From Alkalicoccus halolimnae (lineage in GTDB: Bacteria; Bacillota; Bacilli; Bacillales; Salisediminibacteriaceae), in NCBI RefSeq assembly GCF_008014775.2, contig NZ_CP144914.1:2232001-2296000 (forward strand): DNA of 64,000 nt, written 5' to 3'. The notes under the pieces were generated by a model. The model ran no database searches. It saw only the letters and a program-made list of their open reading frames with translations, and had not been told where the DNA came from. The position numbers and the translations under genes are program-made. This document shows positions 16,805 to 63,905 of this stretch, in pieces. Each line of letters opens with the position of its first letter. The first letter of the stretch is position 1.

Positions 16805-19057
16805 TTAATCTTCTAAAAAACCTATCTCATCGATTACTAAACTACCCGGCCCGTTTTGGAATTCCCACGTAATCTGTTCAAGCTCTGAAAGATCCTGTCC
16901 CTGTTCAATAAGTTCCGTCTCAAAAAGATAAGTCTGAAAAGCCGGTTCAATCGGTTCTTCATATTTACCATCCCGAAAGTAGTCTTCAAGAAAAGGATAA
17001 CGCGAATACTGGGTCCATATAGAAGAAGGGATAGTATAGAAATCCTCCACATTAATCAATGTTTCTTCTCCACTTCTGAAGGTAAAACGCAAATACACTT
17101 CCGGATCTGTCGTTCCCCGGTCATTCCCGCTCAATTCCCGATCCATCTGTGCCATTGAAAAAGAAAAATAGCTCTTGTTTTCATTGAAATAATCTTCCGC
17201 GTATCCATCTGGAAGTTCCAGATGGTAGGAAGCTTCTGTCTCCCATTCCAGCTGCACCCCATCCGGAGCTTTTCTGCTGCCGGCTCTATCAAGGGTGGAG
17301 ACTTTCTGCCAGCTTTCAAAATCATTTCCAGACGCAGTTACTCCTTCAGGAAACTGCTCTCTATCATTTTCCCTGTTGAAAGTGACGAGAGGAGAATAAG
17401 CAGAATTGGAATAGCGGGTTACATACTGCGTATCCGGCAGCCAGTTCCGACCAGTGCGGACATCACGGAACAACTGCTCGTATTCTTCCTCTCCCCGAAT
17501 CGTCGTTTCCAGAAAAGCGGTCGTAAATACTTTAGCAAGTTTCTGTTGTTCTTCCGGCTCCATCATCTGCTCCCGGCTTAAAAACAAACTTCCAGGAAGT
17601 CGCATATCCGTTCTTCCCCAATCAGTATTAAACTGGCTGTGATTTGCTTCAGCCACATATACAGCTGCCTTCATGAAATCTCCTGAACCGTCAAGTTCAA
17701 CCCGCCCGTACTGCCTGTCTCCCCGGAAATTATGAACGTCTCCATCTCTTGCTCCATGAAGAGATAAATAATTAACATTAACTGGAGCGGGACGCATATC
17801 ATCTACCTGCTGGTCTGTAGGAGCCAGGCCGATTACGGAAGTGATCTCCAGCTCATCCATACCTTCAAGTGCAGGATCCTCTTCAAAAAACTTCTCGTAC
17901 TCGGCAGTCATTGCAGCAGCCTGTCCTCCACGCGAATGACCTATTAAAGCAATATGATCCATGTTAAGGCGTCCCTGAAGTGTTTCTGTTTCTTCATTAA
18001 ACTTCTGCAATTCCAGAAGATGCTGCATAAAAAGCCAAGCCCGCAGCTTCATATCTTCATTAGGGCTGCCTGTCCAGTTGGAATAGTTCACAAAGTTCTG
18101 ATCAATCGATACTGCAGCATAACCGTGGGAAGCAAGATGTTCTCCGAGATAGGTATAGCCGGCGTCCGAAAAATTCTCCATGCGGTGGTTGCCATGCGTC
18201 ATCAGTACGACCGGAAACGGTCCTTCCCCTTCCGGCATCCACATTTCTCCGTTTAATGGAAAAGCTGAATCATCAAATCCCCAGAAGGATGTCCTCCAGT
18301 TTTCCCATTCATCATCAGAGAAATAGCGGGAAGCATCGACACTTTCGGAAAGGATATCTGTTCCTTCTGCGAAGTGTTGCCGATGGCGGTCTTCACCATT
18401 ACTATAATAAATCAGTTCTGCATTATATCCTCCCGGCTCTCCCGGGTCGGCCGTCTGCACAGTAGAAACTCCTTCACTGGAAGTGAAAGTGGAGGTCGCA
18501 TCGTGCTCCTCAATTGTAGGGTGAAAGAAAATCAACAGCAGAAACCAGGAGACAGGAATAAAGCTGTAGATGAGCTTTTTAGGAGCAGGAAGACGGCTCA
18601 TCCATATTTGCAGCAATGCTCCTAAAACATATGCACTTATTATAAATATTCCGGTCATAATCGAAGTGAAGTAAACCCCAAGGTTAGCTTCATCCTGTAT
18701 GTAATAAGCCAGAAAAGCGGTATAAGCCGAGGCACTTAATATAAGTCTCGGCAGCGGTACATAAAGCAGCGACAAAAGATAAGCTGCAGCAAAACTGATT
18801 CCTGCAAAAGCTGCTGTATTAGCAGACATGAACACAATTAGATCCACTGCTCTTCCTAAGCCGGTGGGCATAGCAAGAGCAGCTATCGCTGCAGCCGCCA
18901 TACTGGCTGCGTACATGGCTAATATAACTCCCTCAAGGTCTTCATCCCAGGCTGCCATGACTTTAAGCCTTTTTTTCCACCAGGATGCAAATTTTTGAAA
19001 ACGTGATTTTTCTGTTTTCACATACGGCGACTGCCTGTAAAAATCCTGATATTCCAT
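16805..19057 (-). CDS. Membrane-anchored alpha/beta hydrolase
   Basis: A 750-residue protein with a hydrophobic N-terminal part (about 45-190, five or six helices), then an extracytoplasmic-looking acidic linker and an alpha/beta-hydrolase domain. The nucleophile elbow GHSRGG places Ser at about 375. VVLMTHGNHRMENF forms the oxyanion region, LHGARDGDVHNF may supply the acid and EANHSQFN the His. A C-terminal ~150 residues appears beta-rich. The start is ATG 19057 behind AAGGAG, 24 bases after the msrA stop; an ATG overlapping msrA (19087) is the alternative. Operon partner of the UGA-containing msrA. Substrate unknown. Confidence 0.85.
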   Translation of the reverse strand: MEYQDFYRQSPYVKTEKSRFQKFASWWKKRLKVMAAWDEDLEGVILAMYAASMAAAAIAALAMPTGLGRAVDLIVFMSANTAAFAGISFAAAYLLSLLYVPLPRLILSASAYTAFLAYYIQDEANLGVYFTSIMTGIFIISAYVLGALLQIWMSRLPAPKKLIYSFIPVSWFLLLIFFHPTIEEHDATSTFTSSEGVSTVQTADPGEPGGYNAELIYYSNGEDRHRQHFAEGTDILSESVDASRYFSDDEWENWRTSFWGFDDSAFPLNGEMWMPEGEGPFPVVLMTHGNHRMENFSDAGYTYLGEHLASHGYAAVSIDQNFVNYSNWTGSPNEDMKLRAWLFMQHLLELQKFNEETETLQGRLNMDHIALIGHSRGGQAAAMTAEYEKFFEEDPALEGMDELEITSVIGLAPTDQQVDDMRPAPVNVNYLSLHGARDGDVHNFRGDRQYGRVELDGSGDFMKAAVYVAEANHSQFNTDWGRTDMRLPGSLFLSREQMMEPEEQQKLAKVFTTAFLETTIRGEEEYEQLFRDVRTGRNWLPDTQYVTRYSNSAYSPLVTFNRENDREQFPEGVTASGNDFESWQKVSTLDRAGSRKAPDGVQLEWETEASYHLELPDGYAEDYFNENKSYFSFSMAQMDRELSGNDRGTTDPEVYLRFTFRSGEETLINVEDFYTIPSSIWTQYSRYPFLEDYFRDGKYEEPIEPAFQTYLFETELIEQGQDLSELEQITWEFQNGPGSLVIDEIGFLED

Positions 19058-19080: not shown

Positions 19081-19686
19081 TTACCATTTAACTGAGCGCA
19101 GAACTTCTGACAATTCAGGATCCAGTTTGAATTCCTCATAAACCTCCTGCATTGATAAATTTCCATGAGCGACGGCATTCAGCCGTGCTGAAGCTGTGGC
19201 ATCTATCAGCTGTTTCTCCGATCCAAAATAAGCTTCCAGCGGTTTAAAAGCTTTATTAAATCTGCGCAGGAAAAATTTCTGATGGTAATTTTCCGCCTGT
19301 GTAAAATGTGAGAAGGCAGCTATTTCTGTTTCTACAGGATACCCTTTTTCCGCTTCGTGTTCTTTCTTCTTTGCTTCTGCTGTTATTCTTTCTTCTTCCG
19401 TGCGCCAAAGCACCAGAGACAAATACTGTCTCGCTTTATAGCCATGGTTGACTCCACTGTGCATCAACCAGAAATGATCTAGCAGATCTCCATAGGAGAG
19501 TACAGAAGGATCGTAATCAATCTCTATACATTCGGTATGGTCTCCCATACTGCGGTAAGTTGGTGTCGCAGATTCTCCGCCTGCATATCCTGTTCTTGTA
19601 CGAACGACTCCGTATAGACGGCCGAACTGGCCATCCGGTCCCCAGAATCAACCTAATCCAAACGTAGCTGTCGCTGTATTCCTCAT
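19081..19686 (-). CDS. msrA: Selenocysteine-containing peptide methionine sulfoxide reductase A (UGA at catalytic Cys)
   Basis: MsrA reduces methionine-S-sulfoxide in proteins. Reading from ATG 19686 (AAGGGGG ribosome site) gives 201 codons with one in-frame TGA at 19648-19650 (codon 13). This is exactly where the family motif G-C-F-W-G has its nucleophilic cysteine (ATFGLG-U-FWGPDG). The frame is otherwise open and well conserved: RTRTGYAGGESATPTYRSMGDHTE, then IEIDYDPSVLSY and the QYLSLVLW and FSHFTQAENYHQKFF segments. A hairpin fitting the bacterial SECIS pattern follows the UGA at once. Cys53 is the only other Cys, so no classical C-terminal resolving Cys pair is present. An ordinary gene caller would report only 19081-19548. 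A TGC-to-TGA nonsense mutation is the alternative, but the exact position and hairpin argue for selenocysteine. Confidence 0.88.
19610..19638 (-). promoter_or_regulatory. SECIS-like hairpin downstream of the msrA UGA
   Basis: On the reverse strand, stem ATGGCC (19634-19629) pairs with GGCCGT (19623-19618) around a five-base AGTTC loop (19628-19624); an outer CCG/CGG pair adds length. The loop begins 20 nt after the UGA and its second base is G. Both agree with the described bacterial SECIS consensus (loop 16-37 nt downstream, G in the first two loop bases). Confidence 0.75.
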
Positions 19687-19842
19687 CATCGAACCCCCTT
19701 CATTCGATCTTTCACTTTATATTTTATCATTTTTCTCGTTGGTATACCTACGATAATATAGTCGGACAGTTAAGAATAAACAGCAGCTCCCCTGGCGAAT
19801 ATAAACCAGGAAGGGAAGACCCTGTTTTTTACAGGGTGCCTT

Positions 19843-20326: not shown

Positions 20327-21451
20327 TTACATTTGGTCACTGGCGGGTGGCAACGGGTCGATTTCTCGAGAGATCGCCCAGATGAAACCAAGGAGTTCCC
20401 GAGCGACGGCAGTAACGGCTTTGTGACTTTCTTTTCCTTTGGAGAGCAAGCGGTAAAATTTTTTATGAAGCCGGTTTTGCGCTTTCCAGGAGATCAACTG
20501 CACTGCGGGAGAACTGCCAACTTGTCGCTTTTTCAAGTCTCCCTTGACCGCCGGGGAATAGCGGTAACTCCACCCTGCCTCCACCAACAAACGACGTATA
20601 TGCCGATTGCCGGTTTTCGTAATGCCTCCCTGATTCCGCCGTTCTCCGCTCGAGTATTCGGAGGGGACGAGGCCAGCGTATGCCATCAATTGTCCGGGAG
20701 TGCGGAACCGATGAAAGGACCCAATTTCTGCGACAATTCCGATGGCTGTAATGAGTGCCACCCCTTTGAGGCATTGAAGTGCCTGAATCATGGAGGCGTG
20801 CACACCTTGGATCGACTGGGTATAGATTTCGTCTTCCAGCCGTTGCACGCGTAGTTCCATTTCCTTGAGCTGATGGTAATATTCCCGGAAAACGACCCGC
20901 AGGGTATCCTGAGAGAACTTCAGTGTATCTAACCACTCTCTGTATTTTTTCGTTTGGCGCTTTACGCCTTGCGGCGGTCGAAGCTCGTGGCGCAGGAGAA
21001 ACTTGCTCAACCTTTGACGGGCCCGAAGTTCATCTTCTTTTGCATCTTCCCGGCAACGCACCAGATCGCGCAGTGCTTCATCTGCTTCCGTCGGCACGTA
21101 AATCGAGGTTAACTCTCCGGCACGATACAGCTGTGCGAGCCGAAGCGCATCCCGACGATCTGTTTTCACCCGCTCACCCGGTCGTTGGGGAATGAGAGAG
21201 GGGGCGATAATGTCACAAGAGATACCGAGAGAGAGTAGCAGCCGATACAATGGATAGCCCGTAGGACCGGCTTCATAACAGACACGCAGACGATCCGATG
21301 GACCGAGTTTACGCATCAACTTTCGAACATTTTCTACCGTATGCGGGATGGTGCCCCAAAAGCGAGGAGCATCTCGACCTGCATCGGCGATCGCAACAGC
21401 AATCGTGTTCTTGGAGACGTCCAGACCAACAAATTTTGTGGTATCATTCAT
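20327..21451 (-). CDS. IS110-family transposase (DEDD)
   Basis: A 374-residue DEDD transposase. The N-terminal RuvC-like domain has Asp11 (GLDVSK), Glu60 (CYEAGPTGYPLYR) and Asp98/Asp101 (KTDRRDA). A coiled segment (about 185-215) links to the C-terminal Transposase_20 domain, with GLVPSEYSSGERR (Ser267-Ser268) and GITKTGNRHIRRLLVEAGW. All catalytic residues are present and the frame is intact, so the element may be active. A ribosome site (GAAAGGAGCCAGCTTATC) precedes ATG 21451. Confidence 0.95.
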   Translation of the reverse strand: MNDTTKFVGLDVSKNTIAVAIADAGRDAPRFWGTIPHTVENVRKLMRKLGPSDRLRVCYEAGPTGYPLYRLLLSLGISCDIIAPSLIPQRPGERVKTDRRDALRLAQLYRAGELTSIYVPTEADEALRDLVRCREDAKEDELRARQRLSKFLLRHELRPPQGVKRQTKKYREWLDTLKFSQDTLRVVFREYYHQLKEMELRVQRLEDEIYTQSIQGVHASMIQALQCLKGVALITAIGIVAEIGSFHRFRTPGQLMAYAGLVPSEYSSGERRNQGGITKTGNRHIRRLLVEAGWSYRYSPAVKGDLKKRQVGSSPAVQLISWKAQNRLHKKFYRLLSKGKESHKAVTAVARELLGFIWAISREIDPLPPASDQM

Positions 21452-63623: not shown

Positions 63624-63642
63624 AGCAAGGTATAATCAACGC

Positions 63643-63905
63643 TATGATAAAGAGTAGTACTTTTCCAAAAACATGTTCAGAGAGTCTGCGGCCGGTGTAA
63701 GCAGACCATGTCGGAAAGGGAATGGACTTTGGAGCTGGAGTGCTGAACTGTCAGTAGGCCTCCCGGGTATCTCTCCCGATATCAAAGAGATTCTTTTCTG
63801 TTTCACAAGGAAAAGAACAGAGAGATTTTCTTCTTTTAAGAAAATTAATAAGGGTGGCACCGCGGTCCATTCGTCCCTGATCAGGGGATGGATGGGCTTT
63901 TTTGT
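63643..63905 (+). promoter_or_regulatory. T-box leader, probable tryptophan specifier
   Basis: A complete T-box regulator. Stem I base AAAG/CTTT flanks a specifier loop with AGTAGTA on the 5' side (the AGUA motif) and GAATGGA on the 3' side, so the specifier is UGG at 63723-63725 (Trp). CTTTTCC/GGAAAGG forms the next stem. The T-box sequence AAGGGTGGCACCGCGG sits near 63850. The downstream gene lies outside the window; a ribosome-site-like AAAGGAAGATCA ends it at 64000. Confidence 0.9.
63864..63903 (+). terminator. T-box terminator
   Basis: Stem CCATTCGTCCC / GGGGATGGATGG followed by GGGC and TTTTTT, overlapping the T-box sequence region. Confidence 0.88.

Follow-up and report, generated by a model that had tools for sequence, protein, structure and literature searches.

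A predicted selenocysteine form of methionine sulfoxide reductase A in Alkalicoccus halolimnae and the conservation of its UGA codon among relatives

Selenocysteine-containing methionine-S-sulfoxide reductase (Sec-MsrA) is presented as an established selenoprotein family in passages of PMC9312934 and PMC13188914, and Syntrophobacter MsrA appears among the selenoproteins in a passage of a 2006 paper (PMC1794560). The same source counts three selenoprotein families in Bacillales and leaves them unnamed in the passage concerned, so MsrA could be among the three; the word MsrA is absent from the main text, the part considered, of a 2016 survey (PMC5029168). Aerobic bacteria rarely retain selenoproteins, according to a section of a 2026 review (PMC13188914). 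The closest solved relative of the protein described here is CoMsrA of Clostridium (Alkaliphilus) oremlandii (4LWJ, 4LWK, 4LWM, 4U66, 4W8C), for which excerpts of PMC4333827 describe a Sec form 20-fold more active than the Cys form, recycling through glutaredoxin rather than thioredoxin, and dependence on the C-terminal helical domain. Open-access literature, supplementary tables aside, yielded no account of Sec-MsrA in Bacillaceae, and an earlier listing in such tables is quite possible. The kind of protein is already known; its spread in Bacillaceae and a Sec/Cys switch that tracks selA were not found in the literature searched.

The msrA frame of Alkalicoccus halolimnae lies on the minus strand of the window, the whole 64,000-nucleotide stretch of DNA analysed, together with the following elements.

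19081..19686, minus strand: msrA frame with the TGA read as Sec, 201 amino acids plus TAA
19648..19650, minus strand: TGA codon 13, predicted Sec13 at the catalytic G-[C/U]-F-W-G, placed by the frame, PDB alignment and 27/27 family genes
19605..19650, minus strand: predicted bacterial SECIS hairpin beginning at the UGA, from folding, fixed-stem and slid-partner tests
19635-19617, minus strand: conserved 7-bp apical stem closing the loop AGUUC, from the fixed-stem test
19694..19700, minus strand: AAGGGGG, likely ribosome-binding site, read from the sequence
19084..19260, minus strand: C-terminal extension beyond the PMSR domain, codons 143-201, placed by the PMSR end at 142 and a phmmer match over 5-188, the homologue's domain limits being taken from excerpts of its description

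Translation of 19686-19081 (minus strand) up to the TAA reads MRNTATATFGLG*FWGPDGQFGRLYGVVRTRTGYAGG..., and the TGA at codon 13 is the sole internal stop in the 201 codons. Within GLG-U-FWGPDG this TGA occupies the place of the MsrA nucleophilic Cys, so the sequence-only reading, which had counted codon 13 from ATG 19686 and equated it with the catalytic Cys of G-C-F-W-G, is confirmed in frame, as is its claim that this copy carries no other damage in the form of a further stop. The sequence TGATTYTGGGGNCC occurs once in the window and has a mean of 0.00 occurrences over 100 shuffles. An additional in-frame ATG stands at 19689, one codon before ATG 19686 and behind the AAGGGGG at 19700-19694, so either ATG may be the start.

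With the TGA read as a residue, the product matches Pfam PF01625 (PMSR) over residues 6-142 at 5.6e-34 and NCBIfam TIGR00401 (MsrA) at 2e-27, the latter with 96.5 bits and thus under its cut-off of 108.1. The features of MsrA membership are all present, namely the PMSR domain, GCFWG with Sec for Cys, and the Tyr/Glu/Tyr/His set; an alignment with the MsrA family, proposed earlier as a check, finds Y44, E52, Y88 and H135 conserved, and these residues and Q87 are retained in 63-65 of the 65 TGA rows. The top PDB matches, 7c13, 4u66 and 4lwj, cover residues 5-188 at about 5e-48, and 4LWJ and 4U66 are, according to passages in the literature, the selenoprotein MsrA of Clostridium oremlandii. The likeness to CoMsrA comprises Sec in an identical G-U-F-W-G and a C-terminal helical region (PMC4333827, in excerpt), with which the first part of the Alkalicoccus extension aligns by phmmer. 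Several differences are also apparent. CoMsrA has no Cys beside its Sec, according to the same excerpts, whereas the Alkalicoccus protein has one, Cys53 (19530-19528, minus strand); Tyr140 of CoMsrA is replaced by Phe here, Tyr being found in 58/65 TGA rows; and the host of CoMsrA is an anaerobic clostridium, while Alkalicoccus is a genus within Bacillaceae. Cys53 adjoins Glu52, which aligns with the active-site Glu55 of CoMsrA, and is present in 23/65 Sec rows versus 0/9 Cys rows.

The host genome (G000; 3,694,897 bases in one contig, 99.59% complete) encodes three further MsrA homologues (C1:1866422, 1867467 and 1824708), which share the MsrA catalytic domain at 36-39% identity. These paralogues differ in reading GGCFWCM..., and their match to Sec-MsrA ends at residue 140-141; by eye, one appears fused to an MsrB-like domain, a second is the neighbour of this fused gene, and the third has an MsrB-like ORF next to it.

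The same genome contains the machinery for selenocysteine, with selA, selB, selD and tRNA-Sec clustered within 5.3 kb at C1:1968271-1973604. A genome search for these four genes had been named beforehand as a possible refutation, and it recovers them all: profile searches give 519 bits for selA (cut-off 268), 378 for selB (cut-off 242) and 400 for selD (cut-off 125), and tRNA-Sec (selC) scores 61 bits against the Rfam cut-off of 47 with all 91 model positions aligned. The Rfam tRNA-Sec cut-off is passed by 5 of 14 control genomes, with selA passed by one and selB by two; because the RNA model alone is therefore unspecific, weight is placed on the protein genes and on ARAGORN, which calls the tRNA SeC with anticodon tca (UCA). 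Moreover, selD (L022:8210-9289) carries its own in-frame TGA, within AGUGC (AGUGCKIG), and a hairpin whose loop, GGUUC, resembles the AGUUC of msrA; SelD is accordingly placed among the predicted Sec-containing proteins.

The TGA is conserved widely among relatives. In a family sample of 35 genomes, searched at a match threshold of 1e-30 or better, 27 contain the gene and all 27 have TGA at the nucleophile codon, the other 26 genes being 40-58% identical to that of Alkalicoccus halolimnae; close relatives with TGC or TGT at this codon, which together with further inactivating changes in this copy had been named as refuting, are thus not found among the family's matches. The order sample gives 56 matches in 397 genomes, 12 of them belonging to the family, with the TGA version in 48/397 and no match in the other 341. 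Outside the family, the 44 genes divide into 36 with TGA and eight with TGC/TGT, and selA is present in 36/36 TGA genomes versus 0/8 Cys genomes (Fisher p 5.6e-9, relatedness ignored), a count over the 44 gene-bearing genomes. The eight Cys orthologues (L063, L069, L083-L088) are of comparable length and 38-46% identical to Sec-MsrA, yet they differ from it in the codon at the site, in showing no excess of hairpin pairs and in having no selA match. In the family genomes of 90% completeness or more, selA and selB accompany the gene in 24/24, while of those without the gene 3/8 have both and 5/8 have neither over the cut-off (p 2.8e-4). Two less complete genomes depart from this pattern: in G017 (76% complete) the TGA gene occurs without a match for selA or selB, and in G005 (80% complete) selA is not matched.

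At the level of the phylum, a sample of 398 genomes that contains the host's own gives 20 matches, of which 17 have TGA in frame and three are stop-free; the 11 further loci that were read have TGA at the identical site. TGA also occurs in two clostridial genes, and TGC in an Acetothermia MAG. The 'few algae and anaerobic Firmicutes' to which the sequence-only reading assigned selenoprotein MsrA understate its range, given TGA matches in 48/397 genomes of the order and 17/398 of the phylum sample. Across all genes examined TGA is found in 65/74, the remaining nine being Cys genes. Among plasmids, 1079 of 72,556 records match, every one below 60% identity. The tree requires three Sec/Cys changes (bootstrap 3-4); since its group of seven Cys rows, at 90/83, is not starred and L088 forms a long branch, it does not fix the direction of change.

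Bacterial SECIS elements are formed by a hairpin just 3' of the TGA whose apical loop bears a G. In the Alkalicoccus gene the loop AGUUC lies 22-26 nt from the T of the TGA, in a hairpin about 20 nt past the TGA, where bacterial SECIS elements are located. The folding-energy z of this gene is -1.97 over 52 nt, -2.61 over 71 nt and -1.19 over 101 nt, with 10/200, 1/200 and 26/200 shuffles, respectively, folding as well. Over the whole 51-nt region, the mean folding-energy z is -1.36 for TGA genes and -1.31 for Cys genes (p 0.89); as this measure does not tell the two apart, the fixed-stem and slid-partner tests were adopted. The former scores seven pairs against 300 synonymous redraws, with codon usage pooled over these genes and relatedness kept in. 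The 65 TGA genes form the pairs in 416/455 cells versus 286.7 expected (SD 8.2, largest redraw 309), while the nine Cys genes form them in 28/63 cells versus 26.3 (SD 2.7), which is no excess, as 95/300 redraws reach 28; for Alkalicoccus halolimnae msrA alone, P = 0.026. In the slid-partner control on 63 distinct rows, 402/441 cells pair in register versus 120-202 when slid by 1-3 bases, a comparison in which in-register pairing is somewhat favoured by derivation of the stem from the window's own fold. The stem varies among genes at pair (19,29), found as C-G, G-C and G-U, and at pair (17,31), found as U-A, U-G, C-G and G-U. Loop base 2 is G in 64/65 TGA genes versus 3/9 Cys genes. The 11 TGA genes elsewhere in the phylum form 4-7 of the seven pairs, and the two clostridial TGA genes merely three and two. 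An Rfam scan of the window at gathering score returns no selenium element. Collectively, the pairing tests support a SECIS-like hairpin after the TGA that appears to be conserved beyond protein-coding demand.

The stop could have arisen in an ordinary Cys-msrA by nonsense mutation, or be a sequencing error, since one base separates TGA from TGC/TGT; the three stop-free MsrA homologues of the genome might serve in its place, and 3/65 TGA genes of relatives look damaged by a frameshift or extra stop (L051, L057 and L071). Such a pseudogene is contradicted by the family-wide conservation of the TGA, and the intact Alkalicoccus copy, the hairpin excess confined to TGA genes and the presence of sel genes also count against it, leaving it with very little probability. 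Selenium-free decoding of the codon as another residue, Trp or Cys, whether through near-cognate readthrough or an altered genetic code, is about as improbable. TGA is reassigned in some bacteria, and Cys would result in an active enzyme; against this, selA in the same genome seemingly ends on an ordinary TGA, its profile match reaching position 454 of 455, a Sec-type tRNA with anticodon tca exists, and in the eight genomes of the order that have Cys at the site, this Cys is encoded by TGC/TGT and selA is not matched. That the true product is the 155-aa protein beginning past the TGA can hardly be maintained: the table-11 ORF list does give it, from ATG 19548 and just as an automatic caller had been expected to misread the gene, but it is without the nucleophile and the FWG motif, G-[U/C]-F-W is in frame at all 74 orthologous loci examined, and the putative ribosome-binding site lies ahead of ATG 19686/19689.

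The gene is thus almost certainly that of a selenoprotein MsrA in which UGA 13 is read as Sec, and the earlier suggestion of a probable selenoprotein is supported, at the level of sequence, by the sel genes, the TGA conservation in the family and the SECIS-like hairpin. In the mechanism proposed, the ribosome would arrive at UGA codon 13, the mRNA hairpin directly 3' of it would bind SelB, and SelB would supply Sec-tRNA(UCA), so that translation would run on to the 201-aa protein. Sec13, replacing Cys, would be the nucleophile, its selenol attacking methionine-S-sulfoxide with release of methionine, and an external reductant would then regenerate the enzyme. An external reductant is proposed because the C-terminal part of the protein, aligned to residue 188, holds no Cys, unlike that of classical MsrAs with its resolving Cys, and the only Cys of the protein is Cys53; as a guess, Cys53 might itself act as the resolving Cys. 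By analogy with CoMsrA, a comparable gain in activity, a similar recycling and a need for the helical domain may be expected of the Alkalicoccus protein.

The surroundings of the gene and the remainder of the window include the following.

16805..19057, minus strand: chlorophyllase-like alpha/beta-hydrolase domain protein, 23 nt downstream of the msrA stop
20327-21451, minus strand: IS110-family transposase, 268 bits (cut-off 140)
63635-63881, plus strand: T-box leader, over the Rfam gathering score
2327-2436, minus strand: epsC RNA, over the Rfam gathering score

The hydrolase gene, whose start was chosen here at 19057 and is placed at 19087 in the program-made ORF list, adjoins Sec-msrA throughout its own clade, and the two are probably transcribed together. 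The IS110 transposase ends some 640 bp upstream of msrA. When the window was scanned for frames split by a TGA, five composites besides msrA emerged, in which no motif was recognised by eye.

Formate dehydrogenase was considered as the reason for sel retention in the genus and rejected, as none of 19 Fdh-alpha matches (E up to 1e-100) from its eight members has a TGA; Fdh-alpha matches with TGA do occur in other genera of the family. Three family genomes (G014, G027 and G032) have selA and selB and no match to Sec-MsrA. A TGA-containing Fdh is present in G032, and none was found in G014 or G027, which are therefore likely to have another, or a missed, selenoprotein. It is a tentative and rather doubtful proposition that the genus keeps the whole Sec machinery mainly for MsrA, with a selenoproteome of two members, SelD and MsrA, in an alkaliphile, and that the order forms a natural series in which sel loss goes with loss of MsrA or with its Cys version.

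The Bacillaceae hosts of Sec-MsrA are probably for the most part aerobic or facultative. Table-11 callers start this enzyme past its active site, so it has probably been misnamed or missed in those parts of the Bacillaceae order where this repair enzyme is common. Sec-MsrA Bacillaceae and the Cys lineages of the same order that are without selA form natural pairs bearing on the benefit of selenium and the cost of its loss.
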